From assembly GCA_021777845.1 (NCBI GenBank), contig JAJYDB010000006.1, positions 1 to 43,389 on the forward strand: DNA of 43,389 nt, given 5' to 3'. Below the pieces are notes generated by a model that ran no database searches, was not told the DNA's origin, and saw only the letters and a list, made by a program, of their open reading frames with translations. Position 1 is the first letter of the stretch. Each line of letters begins with the position of its first letter. Positions 2,745 through 8,902 of this stretch are shown piece by piece. The position numbers and the translations under genes are program-made. Source of the DNA: Planctomycetota bacterium. Its GTDB lineage: Bacteria; Planctomycetota; Planctomycetia; Isosphaerales; Isosphaeraceae.

Positions 2745-4421
2745 TCATTTCGCCGCTTCCTTCAACAGCGGCGAGTCTTTGTATTTCGCCTCGATCGCCT
2801 TCAGCAGGTTGACGCGGTTGCTCCACATCGCGACGTAATTCTTCATCGAATTAAGCCGAGCACCGTACGCCGCCAGCGCCGCCCGAGCCGAGGACACGTG
2901 ATCTTCCTCCTCGCTGAGCATGATGTCCGGGACCGCTTTTCGCTCAACCAACTCCTTGATCCGCTGATATTGCTTCTCACGGTAGGCCGCGGCGGATTTG
3001 GCCGCGAGCAAATCCGACTCCCGCTCCTGGACCAAGCCAAGCAGGCCGTCGCGGTGTCCCTCCGCTTCGTCGATCTCGTCGAGCAACATCGCGTAGAGCA
3101 GTTGGAATTCGCCGGATGTTTCGAGATACAACTCTCTGGGAATCGCTTTATTCGCGTACAATTGTTCTCGTGCAAGCCCGCGCCGCGCAGCGTTGCGAAG
3201 CTGCACTTCAAGCTGCCTCGGCGCGCCCCGATCGGCGCGCGGGATGCTGATCGCGACCTCGTTCGAATCGCGCTGATTTGCCTTGCTCGTGCCGAGGTTG
3301 AAGGACGACAGGGAGCGGTTTTGAGTCGGCGGCGCGGGCGCGGCCTTCGTTTGAGCGGAGGCGGGCGGCTGCGCGGTTGTCGGCTTTGCCGTCGGATCGA
3401 CCGGAGGCTGCGGCGCGGCGTCTCCTTCGGGTAGTTTCACGCGCCCGGCACTCGTGGCCCCGGTTGCATCATCGACGCCCGCGGCTCCGCCGGGGATCAG
3501 ACCAGAAGAGGCGCCCGAGCCTGCTTTTTGCGAGGACCAGGCCGCCACCCGCGACCCCGTCCAGACCGTTCCAACCGCCGCGCAAACCGTGACGGCGGCG
3601 AAAACTTTGACATGTGACCAAAACATAGCGTGAAGCACCTTGTGAGCGAGCGCCGACGCCGCGGTCGAGAACGTCCCGACCGCGGTTCCGCGCGTGGTCA
3701 TGAGGGCGGCGAGGGTTGTGGCCGCGACGAGCGCCGGACTGAGCGCGGATGCCGACGCGTGCGCGGTCGCTTCGGTTGCCGCGAGCGCCGCCGAAGCCGC
3801 GAAGCCTCGACGCGCCAGCCGCGACCGCAACAACGCCCGACCGCGCGCCAGACGGCTCCGAACCGTGCCGACCGGTCGATCCAGCACCAGCGCGGCCTCG
3901 TCGTGCGAACGCCCTTCCAGCAGGCAGAGCACGACCGCCGCGCGATAAAACGCGGGCAATCGCGCCACCTCCTCGTCGAGCGCGGCAACCAGCTCGCGAT
4001 GTTCAATCGCGTCAAACGCGGATTTGGACACATCATGTGCACGCGTGCTCAGATCACATGTCGTCGAGATTCGCGACGATCGTTGCGCCCGCATCTTGCG
4101 CGCTCGCAGTGCGACTTTGCGCGCGACGCCGTGCAGCCACGAGGCCAGCCGCTCGGGCCGAGCGATCGACCCCGCGCGCCGCGCCAAGACGAGAAACGTC
4201 GCTTGAAACGCGTCGTCGGCGTCGGTCGGATCCGCCAAGAGTCGCCGGCAGACCCCCATCACCATCGGCCCGTGCCGCGCGACCAACGTCTCGAACGCGG
4301 ATTCGTCGCGACTGCGCGCGAACCGGTCGAGCAGCTCCGTCTCCGACAGACCCGACGTCGTGCCGAACTCGAACAGACGCCGCAGGTCGTGCGCGACCGT
4401 CCCCCCGCGACCAAACGCCAT
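2745..4421 (-). CDS. ECF RNA polymerase sigma factor with transmembrane and coiled-coil C-terminal extension
   Basis: The N-terminal ~200 residues are an ECF sigma factor that would direct RNA polymerase to target promoters. Region 2 shows DADDAFQATFLVLARRAGS and then RLASWLHGVARKVALRARK. Region 4 shows LPAFYRAAVVLCLLEGRSHD and PVGTVRSRLARGRALL. The rest is far longer than a standard ECF (558 against about 190 residues). It has an Ala-rich linker, a transmembrane helix near residues 266-290 (SHVKVFAAVTVCAAVGTVW), a Pro/Ala/Thr-rich segment, and a C-terminal helical region around residues 400-555 with a RIKELVERKAVPDIMLSEEE pattern like a helical hairpin. Such ECFs with C-terminal extensions are known from planctomycetes. 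The membrane segment may tether the sigma factor or let the outer part sense the envelope; no separate anti-sigma gene is adjacent. Start is an ATG. Confidence 0.9.
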   Translation of the reverse strand: MAFGRGGTVAHDLRRLFEFGTTSGLSETELLDRFARSRDESAFETLVARHGPMVMGVCRRLLADPTDADDAFQATFLVLARRAGSIARPERLASWLHGVARKVALRARKMRAQRSSRISTTCDLSTRAHDVSKSAFDAIEHRELVAALDEEVARLPAFYRAAVVLCLLEGRSHDEAALVLDRPVGTVRSRLARGRALLRSRLARRGFAASAALAATEATAHASASALSPALVAATTLAALMTTRGTAVGTFSTAASALAHKVLHAMFWSHVKVFAAVTVCAAVGTVWTGSRVAAWSSQKAGSGASSGLIPGGAAGVDDATGATSAGRVKLPEGDAAPQPPVDPTAKPTTAQPPASAQTKAAPAPPTQNRSLSSFNLGTSKANQRDSNEVAISIPRADRGAPRQLEVQLRNAARRGLAREQLYANKAIPRELYLETSGEFQLLYAMLLDEIDEAEGHRDGLLGLVQERESDLLAAKSAAAYREKQYQRIKELVERKAVPDIMLSEEEDHVSSARAALAAYGARLNSMKNYVAMWSNRVNLLKAIEAKYKDSPLLKEAAK

Positions 4422-4565: not shown

Positions 4566-5096
4566 TCAATAGGTGATCACGCTGAGCACGTCGATATTTT
4601 TGAGTTTCGCATCGCCCGCGAGGAATTTGAGCTCGATCAGGAACGCGCACGCGACGACGTGCGCGCCCGAGCGTTCGACAAGCTCGACGCACGCGGCCAT
4701 CGTGCCGCCGGTCGCGAGCACGTCGTCGAGCAGCAGGACGCGCTGGCCGGGCCGCAAGGCGTCGTTGTGAATTTCGAGACGGTCGGTGCCGTATTCGAGG
4801 TCGTACTCGACCGCGAGCGTGTGCGAAGGCAGCTTGCCCGGCTTGCGGATCGGCACGAAACCCGCGTTCAACTTCAGCGCGAGCGGCCCTCCAAAAATGA
4901 ACCCGCGCGCCTCCGCCGCCGCGACGACGTCGATCTTGCGCCCCGCGCAGAGGTCCGCCAAAGCGTCGATCGACGCGCCGAACGCGACCGGGTCGGCGAG
5001 CAGGGGGGTGATGTCGCGAAACAAAATGCCCGGCTGCGGGAAGTCGGGGACGTCGCGAATCCAACGGCGCAAGTCAACGGCGGACGTCAAGCTCAT
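4566..5096 (-). CDS. apt: Adenine phosphoribosyltransferase
   Basis: Makes AMP from adenine and PRPP for purine salvage in the cytoplasm. The 176-residue length is normal for Apt. Visible landmarks are the N-terminal IRDVPDFPQPGILFRDITPL, the AAAEARGFIFGGPLA segment, PIRKPGKLP, and the PRPP-binding loop VLLLDDVLATGGT at about residues 120-132. The ATG start is preceded by a GGAGA ribosome-binding site about nine bases upstream. The sigma-factor gene follows on the same strand after 144 bases, so co-transcription is possible but not shown. Confidence 0.96.
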   Translation of the reverse strand: MSLTSAVDLRRWIRDVPDFPQPGILFRDITPLLADPVAFGASIDALADLCAGRKIDVVAAAEARGFIFGGPLALKLNAGFVPIRKPGKLPSHTLAVEYDLEYGTDRLEIHNDALRPGQRVLLLDDVLATGGTMAACVELVERSGAHVVACAFLIELKFLAGDAKLKNIDVLSVITY

Positions 5097-5554: not shown

Positions 5555-5803
5555 TCACTTTTTCGGAGGGACCGGGGCGGGGGTCTTGCCGGCGCTGAAC
5601 GGGATGCCGCCGTCGAGGTCGACCGGCACATAAGGATCGGCCGAACCGGCCGACGACGGGGTGTCGAGGCGCGACGACGTCGCGCAACCCGTCGACATTC
5701 AGGTCGCGACGCCCATGCGCGGCAGGATCCAGCGGTTCAGAGCGATCCACCCGCCCATCACCGCCGCGAACAACACTAATTCTTTCATCGAAACCGACCT
5801 CAT
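5555..5803 (-). CDS. Small membrane-anchored protein, interrupted by an in-frame TGA
   Basis: A short gene missed by simple gene calling. It starts at ATG 5803 with a good GGAGG ribosome-binding site eight bases upstream. It encodes a single membrane helix with MKELVLFAAVMGGWIALNRW and then ILPRMGVAT, followed by TGA at 5699-5701. The same frame continues immediately with ATG and 47 codons (MSTGCATSS, then ADPYVPVDLDGGIPF, then a Pro-rich KTPAPVPPKK end), stopping at 5555. As I recall them, related small planctomycete membrane proteins read through this point with a Cys ('GV-T-C-M-S-G' pattern), so TGA may stand for TGC. The options are a 34-residue protein plus a coupled second ORF, a nonsense or sequencing change, or recoding of UGA (selenocysteine). 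I cannot decide between these from sequence; the gene itself looks real. Confidence 0.6.
5654..5694 (-). other. Strong two-part hairpin right after the in-frame TGA
   Basis: Starting four bases after the TGA there is an outer stem of seven pairs (CGACGGG with CCCGTCG) and an inner stem of six pairs (GCGCGA with TCGCGC) around a five-base CGTCG loop. Bacterial SECIS elements are hairpins of about 40 bases directly following a UGA, so position and size fit. However, GC-rich DNA forms hairpins easily and the sequence is also coding-compatible, so this is only suggestive. Confidence 0.35.
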
Positions 5804-5902
5804 TGGATAAGCCTCCACGCGCGGTTACCACCTTAACTATACGTCACGCGGCAAGAGTCGGGCAGGGGGTGCGTGCCGCGGGCCGCCGGTCGCGTTTTAT
5901 CC

Positions 5903-8902
5903 TTAATAGGTCGCGCCCACGCTGAAGTTGAAGAACTGCTTGACGTCGCCCTGGGCGCTCGAGACCGGGAAGGCGAGGTCGACGGCGATCGGCATCGGCA
6001 TGAACGGCAGCGTGATCCGCAGCCCGGTGCCGACCGAGACGCGCATGTTGTGGAAGTCGTAATTTTGCTCGACGGTACCGAAATCGCAGAAGGCGACCTG
6101 ATAAATGGTGTCGCGCGCGTTCAGCGGGAAGCGGTATTCGACCGAACCGAGCGCCTCAAAGATACCGCCCGCGTTCGAGCCGAATTGGAAAGGGCCGACG
6201 CCGTAGTATTGGAAGCCGCGCAACGAGCCGAAGTTGCCCGCGAAGAAGCGCTCGTAGACCGGCGTGGCGCGTCCGGCCGCACCCAAGAAGCCGCGGACTT
6301 CGAGGACGCGCGGGCCGCTGCCGTCGGGCCTCGAAAAGAGCGTCCAATAGCTCCGCCCCTCGACCTCGACCTTCGGAAAAGTGAACGACCCCCAACCTTG
6401 TTGGAACGCGAGTTGAAGGTAACGTCCGCGTGACGCCATAAATGGCGAGTTGCGGGTGTCGTAGCGAATCGAAGGCCGCAGCGAAAACAGGCTGGTGTTG
6501 CCGGTCGCGGCGAGATAGTCGGCGGGCGCGGGGTATCGATAGCCGAAGAAGTTGACGTTCTCGGCGCTCATGCCGACGTCGGCGAAAAGTGTCGGCGAGA
6601 GCAAACGACCGAGCGCGATCTGCGTGCCGCCGCGGCTCAAGGTCCAGTTCGGATAGAAGCGATAGTTGAAATAACCCGTGGTGCTGAACGTGATCGGCTG
6701 CTCGAAGAGATAGGGCTCGACAAATTTAAGCTGCGCGCTGTTGAGCACGGTGCCGGGCATGAGCGTCAAAATAAGCTGCTGCCCGCCGCCTCGGAAGGAC
6801 TTGCCTTGAAGGATGTCGTCCCACGTGCGCGGCGGGTTCCAGATGTTGAAATTCTTTTCCGCGACCGTGAGCATCCCGTACAGCCCCTGGAAGCTGCTGG
6901 CGCCAAAGGCGAGGCTGAAGTTGCCGGTGGGCGACTCTTCGACCGACGTCAAGACGTCGGCGAACGAGCGGTTGCGGAACGGGTCGTTGCGGTCGGGACC
7001 GACGTCGTTGACGTTCATGCCGGGGACGTTCGGAAAGCCCCCCGGCGGCTCGCCGGTGCCGATCGGATTGAGACGCGGGTTGGTTACCCCACCGGGCGGA
7101 AGCGGGGGCAAACCGCCGCCGTTCGGCAGCGCGGGGGGCAAACCGCCGCCGTCGGGCGTACCGACGTCCGGCACCGTGTCGGGAGGCGGGCTGAAGGTGC
7201 CGCCGCCGCTCGGAGGCGGAGTCACGTCGATCGACGGCAACGAGGGGTCGTCCTGCTGCGCCAGCCGGGCCCGCGGCGAGGCGGAACTCGAATCTTCAAC
7301 TGGACTTGCGGCGGATCCTGACGCGCCGTCGAGGTTCGACGCGACCGGCGCGGGCGAACTCGCGGGCGGCAGGTCCTGGCCAAGCTGCAAGCGGTTGGGA
7401 CGGGTGGAGTTGCGACGCGCGCGACTGCCCGTCAAGGGCGGCACGACGACCTCGGTGCCCGGCCCGGGATCCTGACCGCGCGTGCCCGTGAGCGTGACGC
7501 CCGCGTCGAAGCTCGGCAAAATCCCGTCGCCGTAAGGCTTGCTGCCGTCGCGCTCGTTGATGATCGTGATTTCAATCGGCTTGTGGTTCGGGTCGCCGGG
7601 CGCGCCCGAGAAATACCCCAGCTGGTTTAATCGCTTCTGAAACATATCAAAGCGGTTTTTGTCGAGCACCTTGCCCGGCAGCAAACCGGCCATGTTCGCT
7701 TCGCGGCGGATGACCTTGTCGAGCGTGTGGTCGTTCCCCTTGATTTTCAGCTCGGCCATCAAGAAAGCCGGTCCCTCGTTAATCTTATAAAGCTGGTCGA
7801 CGACGCCGGGCTCCTCGGTGGCGCGGTAGTCGGCGGCGACTTCCGCCTTAATACAACCGAGCGCGTAATATTTCGCGAGCAGGCGTTTTTTGTCGGCCTC
7901 GACGAGCGTGAGTTGATAGGGAGCGCCTTTTTTCACGAGCAACCCGTCGCGGAGATCCTTCGCCGCGAGCTTCTCGTTGCCCTCGATCACGACCTCGCGG
8001 ACCTTGTATCGCGGGCCTTCCTTGATGTCGAACTCGATGCGAATGTCGCCCAAACTCGCACCGGTGCGGGTGACCGGCGAGACTTCGACGTTGAAGAACC
8101 CCAGCCCTTCGTAATATTCGATGAGCTTCTTGCGGTCCTCAACGAGGTTATCAACCTGATAATTGCCGCCGATCAGGCCCAGGATCGGCGTCCGACTGGT
8201 GATTTTCGTCCGCAGCGTCGAGTCGGGGATCTCGGTGTTGCCGAAGAACTCGATCTTGCCGACCTTGAGCACGGGACCTTCAAAAATCCGAAACACCACC
8301 TTGCGGTCGGTCGGCTTTTGACCCGAGACGATCTCCACTTCGGCGAGGCCGTAGCCTTTTTCGGCGTAAAGCCGACTAATTTTGCCGACCGCGGCCTTGG
8401 CGAGCGTCGCGTCGGCCCGCGCCCCTTTCTTGAGGCCCGTCGCCTCTTCGAGATCCTTGACTTTGACCTTCTTCGCGCCTTGAAACTCGACCGACGTCAA
8501 AATCGGCAGCTCTTCGACGACGAACACCAGCATGATGCCGCCGGGCACGGCGGGGTCGGGCGGGTCGTCGACGTGGACGTCCTTGAACCACTTCGTCGCG
8601 TGCAAGGTCTTGAGGTCGACGTCGACCCGGCGCTCGTCGAGCTCCTGCCCAACCTTCGAGAGCAGCTTCGCGCGGATTTGCTGCTCGGTGATCGAGCTGT
8701 TCCCTTTGATCACGATCTGCGTGATTTTGCGCTTCACTTCCTCGGCGCACGCGGGACGGGCGCTGAACGGCGTCGCGACCAGGCATCCGAGCGCGAACAC
8801 GGTCGCAAGCACGCCCGCGAAACGCAGTTGGTGCGGCAAGCGCGCGCCGTAGACGGCGATCGCGTCGGAACACAAGGGCAACGCGGTCTTTCCGAGTCTC
8901 AT
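5903..8902 (-). CDS. bamA: Outer membrane protein assembly factor BamA (Omp85 family)
   Basis: Inserts beta-barrel proteins into the outer membrane. The 999-residue product has an N-terminal export signal (hydrophobic stretch about residues 27-50, ending near PACAEE). Five POTRA-like repeats cover about residues 56-450, each opening with patterns such as QIVIKGNSSITEQQI, GKIEFFGNTEIPDSTL and REVVIEGNEKLAAKDL. About residues 452-650 are an unusual Pro/Gly/Ser-rich insert (GGGLPPALPNGGGLPPLPPG). The C-terminal barrel follows (NFSLAFGASSFQGLYG to the end) with the conserved loop motif GSLRGFQYYG. The chain ends in Tyr. Standard BamA is about 800 residues, so the extra length is the insert. The divergent small gene starts about 400 bases upstream. 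Confidence 0.93.
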   Translation of the reverse strand: MRLGKTALPLCSDAIAVYGARLPHQLRFAGVLATVFALGCLVATPFSARPACAEEVKRKITQIVIKGNSSITEQQIRAKLLSKVGQELDERRVDVDLKTLHATKWFKDVHVDDPPDPAVPGGIMLVFVVEELPILTSVEFQGAKKVKVKDLEEATGLKKGARADATLAKAAVGKISRLYAEKGYGLAEVEIVSGQKPTDRKVVFRIFEGPVLKVGKIEFFGNTEIPDSTLRTKITSRTPILGLIGGNYQVDNLVEDRKKLIEYYEGLGFFNVEVSPVTRTGASLGDIRIEFDIKEGPRYKVREVVIEGNEKLAAKDLRDGLLVKKGAPYQLTLVEADKKRLLAKYYALGCIKAEVAADYRATEEPGVVDQLYKINEGPAFLMAELKIKGNDHTLDKVIRREANMAGLLPGKVLDKNRFDMFQKRLNQLGYFSGAPGDPNHKPIEITIINERDGSKPYGDGILPSFDAGVTLTGTRGQDPGPGTEVVVPPLTGSRARRNSTRPNRLQLGQDLPPASSPAPVASNLDGASGSAASPVEDSSSASPRARLAQQDDPSLPSIDVTPPPSGGGTFSPPPDTVPDVGTPDGGGLPPALPNGGGLPPLPPGGVTNPRLNPIGTGEPPGGFPNVPGMNVNDVGPDRNDPFRNRSFADVLTSVEESPTGNFSLAFGASSFQGLYGMLTVAEKNFNIWNPPRTWDDILQGKSFRGGGQQLILTLMPGTVLNSAQLKFVEPYLFEQPITFSTTGYFNYRFYPNWTLSRGGTQIALGRLLSPTLFADVGMSAENVNFFGYRYPAPADYLAATGNTSLFSLRPSIRYDTRNSPFMASRGRYLQLAFQQGWGSFTFPKVEVEGRSYWTLFSRPDGSGPRVLEVRGFLGAAGRATPVYERFFAGNFGSLRGFQYYGVGPFQFGSNAGGIFEALGSVEYRFPLNARDTIYQVAFCDFGTVEQNYDFHNMRVSVGTGLRITLPFMPMPIAVDLAFPVSSAQGDVKQFFNFSVGATY

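Follow-up and report, generated by a model that had tools for sequence, protein, structure and literature searches.

A gene for a tiny membrane protein in a planctomycete genome contains an in-frame TGA that we read, with a probability of roughly 0.94 on the sequence evidence presented here, as a selenocysteine (Sec) codon. The gene is encoded on the minus strand of the 43,389-nucleotide stretch of DNA that was analysed (the window), and its features are listed in Table 1. From ATG 5803 or 5788 the frame encodes MRSVSMKELVLFAAVMGGWIALNRWILPRMGVAT, meets TGA 5701-5699, continues as MSTGCATSSRLDTPSSAGSADPYVPVDLDGGIPFSAGKTPAPVPPKK (MSTGCATSS...PPKK) and ends at a second TGA, 5557-5555; the N termini of homologues align with the second of the two starts. 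An earlier sequence-only reading of this DNA had described a tiny membrane-protein gene with a ribosome-binding site and an in-frame TGA. This description is confirmed, as the GGAGG motif, a single helix and the continuation of the frame are all present. The same reading had placed a second Cys four residues after the TGA. The Cys is there, but its codon is five positions past the Sec codon, with four residues between the two.

Table 1 Features of the selenoprotein gene and its neighbours (window coordinates)
Feature	Position	Strand	Details and basis
Selenoprotein gene (predicted)	5555..5803	-	ATG 5803 or 5788 to stop TGA 5557-5555; translation and homologues
Ribosome-binding site GGAGG	5812..5816	-	8 nt before ATG 5803; sequence
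Single membrane helix, conserved W..LN.W.LP	5714..5788	-	AlphaFold and conservation
In-frame TGA, predicted Sec codon	5699..5701	-	Aligned codons; selB/tRNA-Sec association
Cys codon TGC, +5 from Sec (U-x4-C), probable resolving Cys	5684..5686	-	Kept in 54/58 TGA forms
Predicted bacterial SECIS upper stem-loop, 7 bp, loop GUC	5669..5685	-	Covariation, synonymous-codon shuffles, bSECIS model
Whole two-part hairpin, lower stem UGUCGA/UCGACA	5662..5697	-	Predicted fold
Downstream neighbour, apt-like phosphoribosyltransferase	4566..5096	-	Pfam PF00156
Upstream neighbour, BamA/Omp85 protein	5903..8902	-	Pfam POTRA and Omp85

Of 99 planctomycete genomes searched with the protein sequence, 43 gave matches, and in most of the full-length homologues recovered an in-frame TGA occupies the same site, with Cys in the remainder. 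When 392 genomes from across the phylum were searched with a profile, matches, again mainly TGA forms, came from at least 40 of them, a lower bound with 16 candidates scored per genome. Outside the phylum, homologues are present in single genomes of Syntrophobacteraceae, Spirochaetes and Geoalkalibacter. In each of the three the codon is TGA and the genome possesses selB, so UGA homologues occur in other Sec-using organisms, including these non-planctomycetes. Among distinct sequences, the aligned codon is TGA in 58, TGC in 17, TGT in 4 and TGG in 1 (21 Cys and 1 Trp), the other codons in the tally arising from off-register alignment of loci whose motif has U or C. The in-frame UGA thus stands where homologues have Cys, and the pattern GV-T-C-M-S-G that the sequence-only reading had given for relatives proves to be right. 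Since the TGA recurs across dozens of planctomycete genera and also in other phyla, it is not an assembly error.

ATG is the codon after the TGA both here and in 45 of the 58 TGA forms, as would be expected if two translationally coupled genes were present, one terminating at the TGA and the other initiating at the ATG. This arrangement, which had been put forward as one option, is extremely improbable. The remaining 13 TGA forms have CTG, GGG, GGC, ACG, CTC, TTT, GTG or ATC as the next codon, of which only CTG and GTG are even rare possible starts; Cys homologues run through the TGA position in one continuous frame; and the identity of the codon tracks the presence of selB, as set out below.

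Several variants were seen among the homologues. Three genomes of one genus (g17) carry both Sec and Cys paralogues (L034/L021 in G030, L036/L025 in G043 and L142/L038 in G016), and the Cys paralogue in G030 and G016 adjoins SQR, ArsR and RND genes. Two Sec forms (L094 in G258 and L097 in G252) have no Cys near +5, and their Sec may work without a resolving Cys. L116, L117 and L118 form a divergent Cys-Cys subtype (G.STCC); in the latter two, the neighbouring genes encode YgaP_TM and a cytochrome-oxidase-like protein.

The sequence-only reading had proposed a search of the genome for selA, selB and selC. All three are present above cut-offs, as is selD. The selB (344 bits) and selA (489 bits) genes are adjacent on contig 290, and the tRNA-Sec scores 79.5 bits, with an anticodon judged by eye to be TCA. 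In the selD gene (350 bits; G000:C269:524-1456, L060) the active-site codon is itself an in-frame TGA (NCAG-U-AGK), and the SelD of this genome is likewise a predicted selenoprotein.

Across the family, 53 of the 57 TGA-form genomes have selB above its curated cut-off, versus 1 of 17 with only Cys or Trp forms (Fisher p = 1e-11, a value inflated by the relatedness of the genomes). The four TGA-form genomes without selB are incomplete assemblies (64-89%), and tRNA-Sec is detected in three of them; in G391 (TGA form, 80% complete) neither selB over the cut-off nor tRNA-Sec was found. The association extends to comparisons within genera. In genus g6, TGA occurs together with selB in G005 and G022, while G032 and G038 (77% and 64% complete) lack selB and have Cys. 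In genus g15, selB is absent from G044 (TGC) and G036 (TGG) and present in G014 and G028. The G036 copy (L020), with TGG (Trp) for the Sec codon in a genome without selB, partly keeps the hairpin. A protein tree requires 7 changes between U and C, with one independent pair on starred branches; at 41 columns it is too short and poorly resolved to correct the codon-selB association for relatedness.

These data also bear on the option that the TGA arose by a nonsense change, or is an assembly error, at a former Cys codon, in which case the protein would end at GVAT and the rest would be a remnant. Relatives with Cys forms do exist, and G018, in which neither selB nor tRNA-Sec was found, has a truncated TGA copy that is probably a decaying gene of just this kind. 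We nevertheless regard the option as very improbable for the window's gene, because the TGA is kept across dozens of genera in independent assemblies and tracks the presence of selB, and because the downstream peptide and hairpin are retained. Conservation of the TGA, variation of the next codon and retention of the Cys at +5 (54 of 58 TGA forms) together argue against a nonsense mutation, an assembly error and an ATG restart.

The hairpin that follows the TGA was characterized by folding, covariation and shuffling. A two-part hairpin had been noted from the sequence and is predicted by folding, although its length is 36 nt (5697-5662) and not the 41 bases originally given. The minimum free energy of the 42-nt stretch is -17.1 kcal/mol, and the upper stem begins 20 nt after the UGA. 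The fold is unremarkable relative to dinucleotide shuffles (z -1.06) because the region is GC-rich, whereas the score as a SECIS-type hairpin is exceptional relative to synonymous-codon shuffles (z 4.0, p 0.01). With its GUC loop, 7 bp, 20-nt spacing and -17.1 kcal/mol, the hairpin fits the bSECIS model of PMC13188914, as does the family hairpin, which lies about 20 nt after the TGA and has a loop opening with G[G/U]. The sequence-only reading had also pointed to a hairpin after the final stop. The hairpin sequence GCGCT-caccg-AGCGC is present, but its region folds no better than shuffles (z +0.47), and we give it no weight. In a search of the window against Rfam there was nothing at the gathering threshold and one chance match at a relaxed threshold.

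Across 23 TGA forms from the window's own family, taken without regard to pairing, 95% of cells conform to the seven pairs. Four pairs change on both sides, giving 18 double-changed cells versus 4.8 in shuffles (0 of 500 reach this number), and slid versions of the pairing give at most 1. One pair switches from U-A to C-G alongside a His-to-Arg change. In distant members the hairpin stays even though the peptide encoded under it differs. When replacement codons are drawn by codon usage, the hairpin beats synonymous-codon shuffles (p <= 0.05) in 48 of 59 TGA forms (mean z 3.05) versus 3 of 25 Cys or Trp forms (mean z 0.58; difference p = 2e-9), the 25 including a few duplicates of the L116-L118 subtype that are counted twice. 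Of the three Cys or Trp forms that pass, two belong to genus g15 (the TGC copy L005 and the TGG copy L020) and appear to be recent conversions. As judged from covariation, codon shuffles and fit to the model, the hairpin downstream of the TGA is a SECIS.

The Sec-site option is therefore the one of the original three that is borne out: the TGA is conserved, selA, selB, tRNA-Sec and selD are present, lineages lacking SelB have Cys or, in one case, Trp, and the hairpin covaries. The site is strongly supported, to the extent that sequence can support it. The gene resembles known SelB/bSECIS-dependent selenoprotein genes in its in-frame UGA, its Cys homologues, the bSECIS just downstream and a genome with selA, selB, selC and selD, and by prediction it has each defining feature of a bacterial selenoprotein gene among those that we examined. 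At UGA 5701-5699, the bSECIS hairpin (5685-5669, loop GUC) would recruit SelB and Sec-tRNA(UCA) to the ribosome, and Sec would be inserted to give ...LPRMGVAT-U-MSTGC..., replacing the Cys of relatives without Sec machinery.

The conserved core of the protein, W..LN.W.LP..G.PT-U-MSGxC, comprises one helix with the Sec and Cys directly after it. In the AlphaFold model (pTM 0.40) a single helix is confident, with a pLDDT near 92 across the first 20 residues, and the tail is of low confidence. After the helix come conserved R/K residues, which by the positive-inside rule probably place the Sec on the cytoplasmic side of the membrane. The Sec and the Cys at +5 may form a selenenylsulfide/thiol pair just past the helix.

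A 2026 review lists 119 bacterial selenoprotein families and subfamilies (PMC13188914, Table 1), and none of the descriptions there fits a one-helix protein with T-U-M-S-G-x-C. Pfam gave no match for 31 members at E 0.01, NCBIfam gave one chance match only (YidC, one member, E 0.0095) with the named selenoprotein models unmatched, and a PDB sequence search found no solved-structure relative. Among the known systems nearest to it are TsoA (NF045695, LULAXC motif) and TsoB (NF045694, rhodanese/DsbD fusion-like, UxxxxU), described in Haft & Tolstoy 2025. In these, too, the Sec is accompanied by another Cys or Sec at a distance of four to five positions, and TsoB links Sec to rhodanese. They differ in motif and, in a comparison at the level of the NCBIfam models, are unmatched. 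The YeeE/YedE thiosulfate transporter selenoprotein (PF04143, GUxSG) is also a membrane protein of sulfur metabolism with U-x-S-G, but it is a multi-helix transporter and PF04143 is unmatched. YgaP-type membrane rhodaneses (PF00581 and PF11127) share a small membrane segment, a redox Cys and sulfane-sulfur chemistry; they are frequent neighbours of the family but are encoded by a separate gene, and PF11127 is unmatched.

Planctomycete selenoproteins of strains P1 and P2 (PMC4807772) come from the same phylum and likewise from organisms with Sec machinery. The main text of that paper names other families, for example FdhA and FmdB, and its supplementary list might include the present one. No description of the family turned up in the review table, in that main text or in literature searches; it may already have been named, in that supplementary list or in Haft & Tolstoy 2025. 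The selenoprotein family is thus apparently uncatalogued, and a selenoprotein conserved across many planctomycete families appears to have been missed by catalogues so far. Standard annotation is expected to cut such genes at the UGA or to overlook them. Being small, with one membrane helix and no thioredoxin fold, the protein is unusual among known selenoproteins.

Recurrent neighbours of the relatives, with domains assigned by Pfam, include ETHE1-type metallo-beta-lactamase/rhodanese fusions, rhodaneses with a YgaP-type membrane domain, YgaP_TM alone, Pyr_redox_2 proteins that we read as SQR, and an ArsR regulator that is often divergent. At least one sulfur gene lies within 5 kb at 24 of 60 loci (18 of 48 genera) versus 0 of 79 control blocks of 10 kb, an enrichment that is partly circular because the neighbour queries came from the family's own loci. 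The ETHE1 signal recurs in seven genera besides its source genus. In family f2, a dioxygenase-rhodanese gene, the selenoprotein-family gene and an SQR gene follow one another in this order, nearly contiguously.

The recurrence of SQR, dioxygenase-rhodanese, YgaP-type rhodanese and ArsR neighbours suggests a membrane selenol/thiol relay in sulfide/persulfide handling. Through the Sec/Cys pair, electrons or sulfane sulfur would pass between SQR, which oxidizes sulfide at the membrane, and persulfide-handling enzymes, namely rhodanese and ETHE1-type persulfide dioxygenase. We place a role in sulfide/persulfide handling a little short of even odds. We put it at even odds that the Sec protein instead serves general thiol redox or a peroxide or metal/metalloid response. 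Many loci have no nearby sulfur genes. The window's own gene lies between bamA and apt with no SQR, persulfide dioxygenase or rhodanese neighbours, its genome has only a weak dioxygenase match, and most of the distant relatives are without sulfur neighbours. Some loci instead have thioredoxin, FMN reductase, desulfoferrodoxin or RND efflux neighbours (one locus each, except RND), and the ArsR and RND neighbours could indicate a metal response. Against such a general role, SQR, persulfide dioxygenase-rhodanese and YgaP-type rhodanese recur in several genera, and the sulfur genes of f2 are nearly contiguous with the family gene.

The overall picture, offered tentatively and with chances nearer one in three than one in two, is of a so far undescribed and mainly planctomycete family of one-helix membrane selenoproteins. 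Lacking a thioredoxin fold, they would serve as a membrane-anchored selenol/thiol relay, for sulfane sulfur or electrons, between SQR and rhodanese or persulfide dioxygenase, and would exchange Sec for Cys upon loss of the Sec machinery. The sulfide/persulfide neighbourhood, together with sister lineages that use Sec or Cys, makes the use of selenium in sulfur chemistry experimentally approachable.

Two other features of the window were noted. A 98-nt ARAGORN call on the plus strand (1686-1783, tRNA-Ala, anticodon cgc) looks doubtful because of its length. On the minus strand, the translation of an ORF at 2745-4421 looks by eye like an ECF-type sigma factor whose C terminus is extended by a long stretch.
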